From Pleurocapsaceae cyanobacterium CSU_1_1 (GTDB lineage: Bacteria; Cyanobacteriota; Cyanobacteriia; Cyanobacteriales; Xenococcaceae), in contig JAAUOU010000032.1 of NCBI GenBank assembly GCA_012034765.1, positions 1 to 41,504 of the forward strand: DNA of 41,504 nucleotides, in the 5' to 3' direction. Shown piece after piece: positions 26 to 34,238 of this stretch. The position numbers and the translations under genes are program-made. The notes beneath the pieces were generated by a model. That model did no database searches and was not told the origin of the DNA. It saw only the letters and a list, made by a program, of their open reading frames with translations. The first letter of the stretch is position 1. Each line of letters starts with the position of its first letter.

Positions 26-1627
26 TCATAGAGAAATAAAATCTTTCAACTGCTTATTCTCTCTGAGCTTCACACAATTCTTAAGTTCGATTGACTTTTT
101 TCTGATTTCCTTAACTTGTGACCAATGGTTCGTTGTAAGAATTAGCCAGACTGTGTAATTTGGCAGCCAGATTTTGAACATTTTTGAAAAACAGTCTGCC
201 ATCTTGGCTCCGATGCAGATACCAAGCTTGGTAGGTAGATAGTCAACAACTGATTTTTTGATGGTAGACAAATCTCGTCCAGGGGCGCAGAGAAATCCAA
301 TTACTTCACTTTCTCGCAAACCATGGGTAGCATTGGGAATATTAGCCAGAGATGCCACTAAGATTAGCTTGGCTACATCCTGAAAGTCTGTAGTAGGGGC
401 GTTTCGCACGCCCCTACTGTCTTGCTGTTCGGCAACCGAAAAACCCTCTTTGGCGATGTCATGAGCGATCGCTTCTCCCAAACTGGGATTGATGGCTTTT
501 ACTTCGGACAATATTTCATCATTATTTAAGTCAAGATCGTAAGGATGAATTAGCATTAACCCTTCAGCTTGATCAGTATTATAAATATTGGCAACTACTG
601 CTCTCAATAAACGAATCAAGCCTCTTGTCTGCTGAAAGCCAGGATTTTCTTTAAACCGAGCATATAAATCGCGGATAGAAAAATGAAAAGGATAGGATTC
701 AATTAATTGGGCAGCATAAGAATCGGGAGAGGCATTGGTAACATCCATTTCTTTTGCATCTTTGACCGATTTAGCATAGGCTTGTGCCACATCATTAATT
801 ACGGATTCTTGTGGAAGCTCCTCAAACAATCGAGTACGCAAGATGTAATAAAGTTCACTTCCCTGAGAACTTACTGGTTCTAGCCTTAATGCCGAACGAC
901 CAGTTTCATTTTGTAGATTGGTAATTGCTGTATTAAGCTGTCCCGATCCTCCTTCCCAAGAAGCCGTAAGATCGGAAATTACTACACAGACATTAGATAG
1001 TTCTGGTCGGTCAACAGCGACCAATAGATTAGATATAGCCGTAGCGGTAGCAACTGAAAGGTCTGAGCTTCCAAGTGCGCGGGTCTTGGCATTCTCTAAA
1101 TAAGGCGGTAACTCATCCAAAAATATTAAAGTGGGTTCACCTTGAAGTAGATTAACCCATGCAGTAACCCCAGGAGCATTTAAAGGCGCGTAATGATCGT
1201 TAAAAACTTCTTTTTTGTCTAGCTGCTCGGCTAATTCGCCCCAGAGTCCAAACTTAGCATCGGCTTCACGCCCGTTAAAGCCAATAACTTTTACTACACC
1301 AACCGAGGAACCCACCTCGTTATTTCCTAGTACTCTTGCTCTTAACTCTGGACGCTTTGCCAATAGTCCAAGGGCAATCATGCTATGGGTTTTACCACCG
1401 CCCATTGCCTGAGCTAATAAAAATGTACTCGCTTGGCTGCTCGTATTTTCTAATCGCCCAAAAGCTTTATCAATGAGCGTCCCCATCCCATCTGTTATGT
1501 AATTTTCCTCGAAGAAGCGATCGCTATCAATTCGGTCTTCAAGTAAATCTGAAATATTCAAAACCACATCTCGACGAGAGCGATCGAATACCGACTGGCG
1601 GGGTTTGCAAGCTTGGCTTAAATACAT
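26..1627 (-). pseudogene. DUF499-family P-loop ATPase, N-terminal half, frameshifted
   Basis: The first half resembles DUF499 proteins, large ATPases (usually about 1000 residues) found in predicted anti-phage islands with DUF1156 methyltransferases. Walker A is GGGKT at residues 76-80 and a Walker B-like FLDELPPY lies at 169-176. The ATG start at 1627 gives MYLSQACKPR, a plausible family N-terminus. The open frame ends at 533 residues with a tail that does not look like the family. In another frame, from about position 222 down to 114, the minus strand reads WYLHRSQDGRLFFKNVQNLA, which does look like a family continuation; one extra T in the CTTGG near 222 would restore it. That frame stops at 113-111, so more than one lesion is likely. 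The rest lies beyond the left edge. Family call fairly sure; the pseudogene state is inferred. Confidence 0.65.
392..418. repeat. Perfect hairpin repeat inserted in the DUF499 coding region
   Basis: AGTAGGGGCG at 392-401 is the exact reverse complement of CGCCCCTACT at 409-418; the next pair (402/408) also matches, leaving a five-base loop. It adds about eleven residues (DSRGVRNAPTT) to the DUF499 protein without breaking the frame. Short GC-rich hairpins of this kind are commonly dispersed in cyanobacterial genomes; no second copy was seen in this window. Confidence 0.7.
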
Positions 1628-30536: not shown

Positions 30537-31538
30537 CTAGCTCAGTTGAAAAATAAAGGTTACGAGATCTCCTTTGCCTAAAGCAATGCGATCGCCAGTT
30601 CTCAATCGATGGCGATTACCTTTTTGCAAGGGAGCATGGTTAACATATGTACCATTAGAACTGCCTGTATCCTCGACATAGTATGTATCTCCTTCAATCC
30701 TGATATCAGCATGAACTCGTGATACCACCTCAGAATCAGGATATCCAGAAACATCAATATCAGGAGGAATTTGACCGTTTGGTTTGCCAAAATGAACCAC
30801 ATCTAAGCTTGAGGGAATTTCGATAGTGGTGTTGCTTTGTAAATGCAGTAAACTTGCTCTTTGAATTTGTAGCTGCGTTGCTCCAGGTATTCCTGCCGAG
30901 CTAAAAGGCTGATTTTGTTCGGGAGCTGGAGTTTTTTGGGCTGGAGGTTGATTCTTATTGCTTGCTCCAGTTGCTTGGCTATTTGCTGAAGGTTCAAATA
31001 CTGATTCTGGAGTTTTGCCATCTAAACCTAAATCAGGTATCTCAGAAGGGAAAGGTGTAACATTCTGATTAGAAATAGGTACAGGTTGGACAAATTGAGT
31101 TTCAGGAGGCTCTGGAACAAAATTGTTGGTTGCCTCTGGTTGAACATCGGAAAATCCAACAGGTAATTCTGAATTCTGAGCTATGGTTTGACTGTCATCA
31201 TCTTGATCATCCCAAGGGCTTTGAATTGGTGATGACATTGCAGTTTCGGGTAACATATCCGAGTTATCCCTTAATACAGGTAGCTCGTTAGGCAGAGATC
31301 CCTCTTCTAGGGAAATATTAGGTAATGACCCAATGGCAGTTTCTTCTTCTAAACCTACTGCGCTGGGAGAATTTTCGGCTTGCAAATTAAAACCACATTG
31401 ACCACAAAAAGTAGCATCTGTTTGTACTGAGGCTCCGCAATTCGGACAACTAGCGGTAGCTGGCAGAGGAGTATAACAATTTTCACATTGCAAAGATCCT
31501 TCAGGATTTTGATGATTGCAACTGGGGCAAGTAATCAT
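30537..31538 (-). CDS. Zinc-ribbon and FHA-domain protein
   Basis: 333 residues in three parts. Two N-terminal zinc ribbons have cysteines 4, 7, 18, 21 and 31, 34, 45, 48. A long, disordered Pro/Glu/Gln-rich linker follows (about 55-225). The C-terminal FHA domain (about 238-333) contains SRVHADI and GSSNGTYVN, which recognise phosphothreonine. The protein probably acts as a scaffold responding to Ser/Thr phosphorylation. The next gene in the same direction is the CNB/AAA/Fe-S fusion, about 175 bases upstream; a joint role is speculative. Confidence 0.88.
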   Translation of the reverse strand: MITCPSCNHQNPEGSLQCENCYTPLPATASCPNCGASVQTDATFCGQCGFNLQAENSPSAVGLEEETAIGSLPNISLEEGSLPNELPVLRDNSDMLPETAMSSPIQSPWDDQDDDSQTIAQNSELPVGFSDVQPEATNNFVPEPPETQFVQPVPISNQNVTPFPSEIPDLGLDGKTPESVFEPSANSQATGASNKNQPPAQKTPAPEQNQPFSSAGIPGATQLQIQRASLLHLQSNTTIEIPSSLDVVHFGKPNGQIPPDIDVSGYPDSEVVSRVHADIRIEGDTYYVEDTGSSNGTYVNHAPLQKGNRHRLRTGDRIALGKGDLVTFIFQLS

Positions 31539-31712: not shown

Positions 31713-34238
31713 TTAAAAACCGACAATTGTTTGCCACATTCCTCTTGCCAAAATTGCGATCGCCAAATGTTGCGAAAGTGAATATTTAAACTGCTGACGG
31801 GCAATCTTTTGAGTCAATAAAATCGACAGTACCACGCCGACAATTAAACAGCTACCCTGTAAAAAAGCAATTACGGCGGGATGAGCCACCAGCATCGGCA
31901 TTGTGCTATTGAAGCCGAAGGTTGCCATTGTCACGGGGAGTATTCTACCTCCCTCACTCAATCCTAAACGTAGATAATGGGCTAAGTTTCCCGCTAAAAC
32001 AAGGGGTAAATAGCCATAGGCTAGCTCAATAAATTTATGAGGTGCATATCTGCGGTTTAATTTACCAATCAAAATATTAATACCTTGAGCTAGTAGGGGG
32101 AAGATCATCGGTGCAGTCAGAACTATGATTGATACTAAAGCATGATTACTAAATCGTTCTAGATGTAGATCTAAACCCAGCCTAACAGATATTTCTGGTA
32201 GACGATGGAGAAAGACCACGTTTAACAGTAAGAACAATAGTGCCACTTCGTAGCTATGGGGTATGTGGGTTGTCCAGAGTTCAATCCCAGGGGGGCGTAA
32301 ATTAAACTCTACTGAACGATGAGGGCAGGCTTTAAGACAAGTCATACAGAGGACGCAATCTTTATTCTCTGTTAACTGAGCGGGATGGGAATAGAGAGGA
32401 CAGCCGTTGGTTTCTTGTCCTTCTCCTTTAGCAGCACCACCTTTATAACATTGGTAAGTAGTACATTCTGCCGAACAAGTCCCCTGTTGCGCCCGCAATT
32501 CCGTCATAGAGAGTTTGGCAAACAAACCGTTCATCCCGCCGATTGGACAAAGATAGCGACACCAGAAACGCCGTTCAAAGATGGTAGAAAAGATCATTGC
32601 CCCTGCGGTGATCAACAGCAATAAACAAGCCGAAAGATAGGCAGTATTTTCTAGATCCCATAGTTCTTCCCACAGCAGTATCAGCGCAAATAAACCAAAC
32701 AAGAACCAGCCACCCCATTGTTCCGCAGCCTGTCTGGGCCATTTTTTAAGCGATCGCGGCCATAAAATCAGGGACATTTTTTGCGTAATCTCGCCATAAA
32801 TCATAAAGGGACATACGGCACACCACAGGCGACCCACAAAGGGAAAGCCAATTAAAATCAGAGGCCACCACCACGCCCAAAACATATTTAGGGCAAAGTT
32901 TTCCTGGCGATTTTGAGGGGCAAAAAATAGAATTAGGACAATAAAGGCAAAAAAGCCCAAAGTGAAGCCATAGTTAATTCTGGTGGGATACCAGTCACTC
33001 CGTAAAAAGTACCTCAGCTGAGGATATCTATTGAGTAAATTTAAGCGGTACTGTTTCTTTTTACTTTGAGATTGCCAAACTACTTCTTCAGTAATCTCAT
33101 CGCACCCCTGGAGTTGAGCCAAAGCGCGTTCGACAATGCTTTCCAATTCCCGTAAATTATTGGGAAAGTCATAGGTTTGAAGATTGCGCACTGCTTCAGG
33201 AGTAATTTTTGTTCTTTGCAGACATTTATTGCGCCCAATTAGACTGAGATAATAGTTGATCTGCTCATCTAGATCTACTTTACGTACTCTTAGAGGCGGA
33301 ACTTTGATCAGATTTGCTACTGCCGAATCGATCGCTGGAATCTTTTGCTCAGAAATAAGAATTATTCTGGCTTGAGATCTTTGAGGTTCGGCTGCTTCTC
33401 CCCCTGGACGGATAATCGGCGTATATAAATTAGTTTGAATAAGCTCGGCGATCGCGGGAATTAATTCTTTTGGCAATAGGTGAATGTTATTGATAACTAA
33501 AGTACCCTCTTGGAGGCTGGCAATTAGTCCTGGTTTTCCCCCACTGCGACCAAATAATTCGGCACCACTAGTCTGTAACTTAGAACAGTCTATTTTAATA
33601 ATTGGTTGGCGACGACTAGCAGAACCAAAGTGAATTAAAGTTGCCAGGTTATCTTTTTCTAATCCTGGTTCCCCAAAAATCAAAACCGACTCTCTGGTTT
33701 GTGCAGCCTGTTTAATTTGCGATCGCAATTTAGTAGCGTAGCGACTTTTACCAATGACACCCCGCTTGGCTTTACTGACCAAATAAGGTCTTAAGATTAC
33801 CTGACGTTCTTGTTCAAACTGTAGCTGTGCTGATAATTCCTTAACCTGGCTGGCTAACTGTTGGGAAAAAGCCTGAGAGATCTGGGGATATTCCTGAATT
33901 AACGCCTGAAACCGCTCACGATTAATCAACCAAACCTGAACTTCTGTAATCGTTTCCACCTGATACTGAGTCGGCTGATCTAACAGTAAAGCATAAAGAT
34001 TTAACACCGTCCCTGATAGCAAACTACTCTGATTAGATTCTAAGATGCTATTACTAGCTAGCCTTCCTGATTGAACAATATATAAAGCATCTGGCGCAGC
34101 ATTTTCAATAATTATCGTTTGCTGAGGAACAATAGTTTGTTCGCTTAAATTACTGGCGATCGCCGTCAAAATATCCGTTGACAAAATGCTCAAACAGGTT
34201 TTTTGCTGAAGAAAAGAGACTAGATCGGGTAAGTTCAT
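31713..34238 (-). CDS. Fusion: cNMP-binding-like sensor, degenerate sigma-54-activator AAA+, multi-pass 4Fe-4S membrane module
   Basis: 841 residues. Residues 1-145 form a Crp-like cyclic-nucleotide-binding domain. Residues 160-385 follow the sigma-54-activator AAA+ fold, but Walker A is GEPGLEKD (189-196), the GAFTGA loop is absent (RSGGKPGL at 231-238) and Walker B is LVINN (247-251) without its acids. About eight membrane helices follow from 423. The NapH/NosR-like motifs WCAVCP (Cys473, 476) and WCRYLCP (Cys560, 564) flank two helices. A Cys cluster (588, 592, 597, 613) precedes a ferredoxin-like 4Fe-4S motif, Cys628, 631, 634, 638. Cyanobacteria generally lack sigma-54, so transcription activation is unlikely. 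Redox-linked membrane signalling is inferred. Confidence 0.85.
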   Translation of the reverse strand: MNLPDLVSFLQQKTCLSILSTDILTAIASNLSEQTIVPQQTIIIENAAPDALYIVQSGRLASNSILESNQSSLLSGTVLNLYALLLDQPTQYQVETITEVQVWLINRERFQALIQEYPQISQAFSQQLASQVKELSAQLQFEQERQVILRPYLVSKAKRGVIGKSRYATKLRSQIKQAAQTRESVLIFGEPGLEKDNLATLIHFGSASRRQPIIKIDCSKLQTSGAELFGRSGGKPGLIASLQEGTLVINNIHLLPKELIPAIAELIQTNLYTPIIRPGGEAAEPQRSQARIILISEQKIPAIDSAVANLIKVPPLRVRKVDLDEQINYYLSLIGRNKCLQRTKITPEAVRNLQTYDFPNNLRELESIVERALAQLQGCDEITEEVVWQSQSKKKQYRLNLLNRYPQLRYFLRSDWYPTRINYGFTLGFFAFIVLILFFAPQNRQENFALNMFWAWWWPLILIGFPFVGRLWCAVCPFMIYGEITQKMSLILWPRSLKKWPRQAAEQWGGWFLFGLFALILLWEELWDLENTAYLSACLLLLITAGAMIFSTIFERRFWCRYLCPIGGMNGLFAKLSMTELRAQQGTCSAECTTYQCYKGGAAKGEGQETNGCPLYSHPAQLTENKDCVLCMTCLKACPHRSVEFNLRPPGIELWTTHIPHSYEVALLFLLLNVVFLHRLPEISVRLGLDLHLERFSNHALVSIIVLTAPMIFPLLAQGINILIGKLNRRYAPHKFIELAYGYLPLVLAGNLAHYLRLGLSEGGRILPVTMATFGFNSTMPMLVAHPAVIAFLQGSCLIVGVVLSILLTQKIARQQFKYSLSQHLAIAILARGMWQTIVGF

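Follow-up and report, generated by a model that had tools for sequence, protein, structure and literature searches.

A protein encoded by Pleurocapsaceae cyanobacterium CSU_1_1 fuses a sigma-54-activator-type AAA+ domain that has lost its hydrolysis motifs to a membrane module with two cysteine pairs and an iron-sulfur loop. We give about an even chance to the reading that this is a NapH/NosR-like membrane electron-transfer protein, with probably two [4Fe-4S] clusters, in which a retired AAA+ domain, mostly accompanied by a retired Crp-type domain, now serves in regulation or docking. In many cyanobacteria that seem to lack sigma-54, a retired sigma-54-type motor has thus probably been taken over for the control of a redox protein. 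It is unusual for a transcription motor to be kept under selection for what is probably a non-transcriptional task where its sigma factor is missing from the genome, and if the AAA+ part controls the iron-sulfur part, it would be a new way of regulating cyanobacterial electron flow. The fusion is built of known modules and is strongly conserved, with the iron-sulfur module maintained from Nostoc to small-genome cyanobacteria that we judge to be Synechococcus-like, and the sister group B gives a testable lead toward sulfur. No paper on this protein was found among the titles and abstracts of open-licence articles in PMC. Names assigned automatically, of which nitrogen assimilation regulatory protein and cyclic nucleotide-binding domain-containing protein were met among relatives, are misleading.

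Gene and Domain Organization

The window (the whole stretch of 41,504 nucleotides that was analyzed) carries the gene at positions 31713..34238 on the minus strand, where it forms a single open frame of 841 residues with an ATG start; all of the features described below lie on the same strand. A Pfam scan identified a degenerate cyclic-nucleotide-binding (Crp-type) domain at residues 36-117 (33888..34133; PF00027, cNMP_binding, 45.8 bits against a cut-off of 27.5), a sigma-54-activator-type AAA+ core at residues 161-299 (33342..33758; PF00158, Sigma54_activat, 50.6 bits against a cut-off of 20.2), an AAA+ lid at residues 317-388 (33075..33290; AAA_lid_14, PF25601) and a Fer4_5 match at residues 540-576. 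The latter falls within a membrane module with nine predicted helices (residues 416-838, 31725..32993) that was delimited using AlphaFold2 models and loop charges. An earlier sequence-only reading had described this domain order in one uninterrupted frame and the absence of a DNA-binding C-terminus, and both are borne out, as the Pfam domains follow one another in the 841-residue frame and the scan of the entire protein found no DNA-binding domain, no helix-turn-helix and no FMN-binding domain.

Two other frames of the window were noted. A gene for a protein with a double zinc ribbon and an FHA domain (30537-31538, minus strand) adjoins the gene and is not among the shared neighbors discussed below. 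At the other end of the window (26-1627, minus strand) a frame of 533 residues matches DUF499, a profile with a length of 1024, and is perhaps a shortened copy.

Occurrence and Groups

Relatives, defined as matches with an E value of up to 1e-20, were found in 104 of 386 genomes drawn across the cyanobacterial phylum (own genome counted) and in 61 of 142 genera. The matches are mostly open full-length frames; two have an in-frame stop, and a few are fragments at contig ends or are split over two frames (G133, G257, G284, G342). In a scan of named genomes, 550 stretches were confirmed and the best 80 were retained. Pleurocapsa sp. CCALA 161 has the nearest of them, with 96% in its best segment, and the 80 also include stretches from Nostoc (among the named genomes with the gene is Nostoc punctiforme NIES-2108, L143), Calothrix, Arthrospira, Xenococcus and Hydrococcus. 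A second match in the own genome (G000:C6) is weak. A fusion peculiar to this assembly is ruled out by the relatives in the 104 genomes and in the named genomes, and because the architecture is so widely conserved, it is the product of neither chance nor misassembly.

The 164 loci collected were reduced to 156 non-redundant rows that are distinct in their last 300 residues, and the rows were divided into three groups, all of which have the AAA+ part. Group B (12 rows) is labeled by a GKT P-loop, group A' (19 rows) consists of members of genome family f25, whose small genomes are in our judgement those of picocyanobacteria, and group A (125 rows) is the remainder, including the window protein. 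The row of L171 belongs to a truncated B copy without the P-loop letters, and the motif, identity and Arg-finger counts given below still include it in A (A 126, B 11). Group B is rare, as it was found in 10 of the 386 genomes (10 of 11 matches, the eleventh, G011, belonging to group A). In a tree of the membrane module (61 rows and five outgroup rows), A' (18 rows) and B (11 rows) are each set apart by a well-supported branch, with a long-branch warning for B and A' and an unsure root. Rooting by stand-alone relatives of the membrane module was rejected, as these are too distant and the tree flags the long branches of B and A' as meeting.

The AAA+ Domain and Sigma-54

The AAA+ part resembles that of the sigma-54 activators NtrC, PspF and NtrC1 and of VpsR in its fold. 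Foldseek placed it close to NtrX and NtrC1 (E around 1e-12), with a TM-score by target of up to 0.83 (NtrC1) among the matches listed. The closest solved protein by sequence was VpsR (E 2.3e-17), and the aligned stretch of VpsR also lacks GAFTGA.

The GAFTGA loop, which the sequence-only reading had found to be absent from the window protein, occurs in 0 of the 156 rows, so its loss is conserved. Walker B of the window protein (residues 246-251, TLVINN, 33486..33503, from the alignment) has Asn-Asn in place of Asp-Glu, again as had been read, and the catalytic Glu is found at position 251 in none of the 154 rows with letters there. Position 251 is Asn in 11/11 B rows. Asp is found at 250 in 7/11 B rows and in 13/18 A' rows with letters, and in no A row. 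Additionally, the stretch in which the Arg finger was sought (residues 296-312) contains no conserved Arg; there is none in the window protein, in 8/11 B rows and in 43/126 A-labeled rows.

The Walker A motif has fared differently. In the window protein it reads GEPGLEKDN (residues 189-197, 33648..33674, from the alignment), and group A has mostly this sequence together with Asn-Asn at Walker B. The Glu at 194 that had been pointed out is therefore real, but the P-loop is not clearly dead, as Lys195 is retained in 153 of the 154 rows with letters and Gly occupies 194 in 10 of the 124 window-type rows with letters. All 11 B rows that show a P-loop have the textbook GKT. The P-loop of sigma-54 activators ends in GK-Glu and not in GK-Ser/Thr, that of PspF appearing as 'gergtgkel' in the sequence alignment, so the Lys195-Asp196 of the window protein is close to the activator form. 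Residues Gly192, Lys195, Ala199, His203, Ser206 and Asp322 are invariant in 54 rows. The term 'dead' fits hydrolysis by the AAA+ domain, judging from its motifs, and not necessarily nucleotide binding.

The dN/dS values of the AAA+ part against four relatives are 0.07-0.11, which are rough as dS exceeds 1 for three of the four, and indicate purifying selection, so the domain is re-used rather than decaying. Together with the invariant residues, this argues against a relic and suggests a re-used domain to which a nucleotide may still bind.

The own genome, which is 95.9% complete, gave no match to the sigma-54 DNA-binding domain, and rpoN was found above the cut-off in none of the 64 carriers tested (of 104), with one match of 33 positions below the cut-off. 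The gene in the window is the best PF00158 match of its genome (54.7 bits), and six others score 22.9-33.3 bits. Orthologs having GAFTGA and an intact Walker B along with rpoN, which would have spoken against the earlier reading, were not seen in the cyanobacterial sequences searched. The window protein cannot be an ordinary sigma-54 activator because GAFTGA (0/156), the catalytic Glu251 (0/154) and rpoN (0/64 carriers) are all missing where tested, and it differs from the activators as well in having no conserved Arg finger and no DNA-binding domain.

The Crp-Type Domain

In Crp/Fnr regulators the pocket for the cyclic nucleotide is marked by the pattern Gly-Glu...Arg. This pattern is present in none of the 120 A rows and none of the 10 B rows that have the Crp-type domain, and Gly-Glu alone is present in 8 and 1 of them, respectively. 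The domain itself is missing from all 19 A' rows. Most of it is also absent from L171 and from five further A rows, in some of which the locus is cut. The suggestion that this domain is a Crp-like ligand sensor was therefore not upheld, and a cAMP sensor is unlikely. Its dN/dS against the four relatives is 0.12-0.21, a rough range since dS is above 1 in three cases.

The Membrane Iron-Sulfur Module

In the AlphaFold2 model (built from 54 rows; mean pLDDT 85.1, pTM 0.57) nine long helices follow residue 415 and are read as transmembrane. The membrane part that had been recognized from the sequence stands, and its count of about eight helices becomes nine. The module has a first cysteine pair, C473-x2-C476-P (32808..32822), a second pair, C560-x3-C564-P (32544..32561), both defined by alignment, and an iron-sulfur loop at residues 588-639 (32322..32477). 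The NapH/NosR-like pairs had been noted previously along with a single 4Fe-4S motif; the pairs are confirmed, and the loop holds two four-cysteine sets, C588-x3-C592-x4-C597-x15-C613 and C628-x2-C631-x2-C634-x3-C638-P. All 12 cysteines are kept in 155 of the 156 rows, the exception (L168) being a relative that is split over two frames. The loop between residues 585 and 629 is poorly modeled (pLDDT under 50).

Conservation along the chain, as measured in group A, is highest in the iron-sulfur loop. The mean pairwise identities, calculated from up to 1500 random pairs, are 0.44 for the Crp-type domain, 0.64 for the AAA+ core, 0.67 for the lid, 0.81 for TM1-4, 0.90 for the iron-sulfur loop (taken as residues 577-655) and 0.61 for TM5-9. 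The dN/dS of the membrane part is 0.035-0.075 for the three relatives for which it could be computed, and is likewise rough, as dS exceeds 1 for three of the four relatives. Positive charges are more common in the predicted cytosolic loops, which hold all 12 cysteines, and the AAA+ half directly precedes the first helix. The loop charges thus favor a predicted topology that places all 12 cysteines and the AAA+ half on the cytosolic side.

Comparison with Known Membrane Systems

No solved structure similar to the membrane module was found by sequence (best E 0.074) or with Foldseek (best E 0.16). The NapH model TIGR02163 aligns with residues 467-646 at 48.4-50.3 bits, which is far under its cut-off of 213.05. 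As described in parts of PMC5928378, NapH and NosR have cysteine-pair-Pro motifs at their membrane helices that are followed by 4Fe-4S cysteine sets, and RdhC is also among the membrane modules with such pairs. According to the same passages, NapH is proposed to take electrons from quinol by way of its membrane part, and its cysteine pairs are important both for nitrate respiration and for the binding of partners. Like NapH, the window protein has two cysteine-pair-Pro motifs and eight cluster-type loop cysteines, but its first pair is C-x2-C and not C-x3-C. It differs from NapH, NosR and RdhC in the spacing of the first loop set (C-x3-C-x4-C-x15-C), in having five further helices past the loop and in carrying the N-terminal AAA+ and Crp-type domains, and from NosR in having no FMN domain by the Pfam scan. 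Among the genes neighboring 143 loci, neither a nap nor a nos cluster was conspicuous.

Deinococcus ficus, haloarchaea, Sulfurovum and rhizobia carry stand-alone membrane modules on plasmids. The Deinococcus ficus protein (WP_027463891.1, '4Fe-4S binding protein', 450 residues) matches the whole module with 30% identity over 97% and has all 12 cysteines. Three haloarchaeal proteins are 24-26% identical over 90% of the module, but just four of the eight loop cysteines align; neither these nor the Deinococcus protein has an AAA+ or Crp-type domain. Upstream of the Deinococcus ficus gene, with an overlap of 4 nt, lies a gene for a His-rich protein (L152:8021-8947) that has no Pfam match and a hydrophobic stretch close to its C-terminus. 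The relative from Rhizobium sp. WSM4643, which we take to be FtrD-like, sits in an FTR1/cupredoxin iron operon. It is likewise a membrane iron-sulfur protein (458 residues) with both cysteine pairs, but it is only about 26% identical over half the module and, in what is a distant alignment, keeps three of the eight loop cysteines. The FtrD label comes in part from sections of PMC11966278.

Possible Functions

Family knowledge and the topology of the model suggest that the module may bind its clusters on the cytosolic side and have quinone or ferredoxin partners. By analogy with NapH, electrons would travel through it between a cytosolic partner and either ferredoxin or the quinone pool. The AAA+ half, on the same predicted side as the cysteines, would serve as a docking, assembly or ligand-sensing domain, which is the simplest use for it since the hydrolysis motifs are lost. 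Binding a nucleotide at most and without hydrolysis, it may alter how active the iron-sulfur module is or which partner the module has; a possible gating of electron flow, as the sequence-only reading had proposed, has in its favor the fusion itself and the selection that acts on the AAA+ domain. In an extended form of this scheme, which we put forward tentatively and regard as rather unlikely, an AAA+ ring without a sigma factor would be a non-hydrolyzing valve through which an adenylate or redox ligand on the cytosolic side sets the iron-sulfur electron flow in the photosynthetic or plasma membrane, making the protein a redox switch in a single chain, with the B protein as a sulfide-stress edition that is produced together with cysteine synthase.

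An unlikely alternative is that the protein is of the FtrD/CcoG type and acts in the membrane to reduce metals or to help in their uptake, in which case the AAA+ domain would be a mere anchor for partners. The Rhizobium operon and the His-rich neighbor in Deinococcus fit this proposal, and genes of one Fur-type sequence cluster are present in 7 of 20 fetched A' stretches (several of them syntenic relatives, with one member of the cluster called FUR by Pfam); in one small genome the gene of the Fur-family regulator (L067:6919-7356) and the A' gene overlap at the end of the latter. FTR1 is more common in carriers of the protein (71/104) than in other genomes (37/282), but shared ancestry may explain this association. 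FTR1 is missing from 33 of the 104 carriers, including all those of f25, the protein is missing from 37 of the 108 genomes with FTR1, and no FTR1-type neighbor stood out among the 143 loci (not every neighbor cluster being annotated). The few loop cysteines kept by the Rhizobium protein also count against it. That the AAA+ part is instead a passive linker or relic with no function of its own would agree with the loss of its catalytic residues and the disappearance of the adjoining Crp-type domain in A'; the low dN/dS, the invariant Gly192, Lys195, His203 and Ser206 and the retention of the AAA+ part by A, A' and B make this improbable.

We consider it highly improbable that the protein is a membrane-bound transcription regulator, with the iron-sulfur part as the sensor and DNA or the sigma-70 polymerase as the target of the AAA+ part. 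The model for such a protein is VpsR, which is sigma-54 independent. Its place as the closest solved sequence, lacking GAFTGA in the aligned stretch, speaks for this reading, as does the deposition of the Aulosira B copy as 'nitrogen assimilation regulatory protein', but the Pfam scan shows no DNA-binding domain and the conservation peaks in the iron-sulfur loop and not in the AAA+ part. There is also a parallel in RdhC: according to parts of PMC5928378, the original proposal of a regulator has given way to that of a redox protein.

Gene Neighborhoods and Upstream Regions

The neighborhoods of 143 loci (122 A, 10 A', 8 B and 3 unlabeled) were compared; 29 of these loci are under 6 kb and hardly show their neighbors. 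No neighbor is common to more than 12 of the 143 loci, so the comparison points to no particular partner of the window type. The upstream regions were scanned with 12 regulator patterns in 120 stretches. The NtcA pattern GTAN8TAC was the only one above all 50 shuffles (9 against a mean of 3.9 and a maximum of 8), but nothing is concluded from this excess because together with a -10 box it was found once against 1.0 in the shuffles. The strong dyads found upstream probably reflect the shared ancestry of one clade.

In group B, a cysteine synthase gene lies downstream on the same strand at 7 of 12 loci (L053, L055, L057, L058, L155, L156, L171), with gaps of 6-535 nt. At six of these the B gene is directly upstream of it, and at the seventh, L058, an ORF of 109 residues lies in between; at the other five B loci it was not found within the fetched stretch. 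The 12 loci also include the cluster of an annotated rhodanese gene in four cases, psbA in three and petC in two. In Aulosira laxa and Pseudanabaena galeata the B gene is carried by a plasmid, where copies of psbA and petC accompany it. DsrE is found at the Pseudanabaena locus, and a MerR regulator and an ArsP permease are found at the Aulosira locus. The two plasmid loci look like islands for photosynthesis under sulfide or low oxygen, and the gene order suggests that the B protein is probably part of a response to reduced sulfur along with cysteine synthase, a link that applies to this group alone. Two related B loci, L065 and L170, are near genes for CCG-domain, FAD-oxidoreductase and 4Fe-4S proteins (Pfam assignments for L065 only), a set of genes that resembles the heterodisulfide-reductase-like HdrABC.
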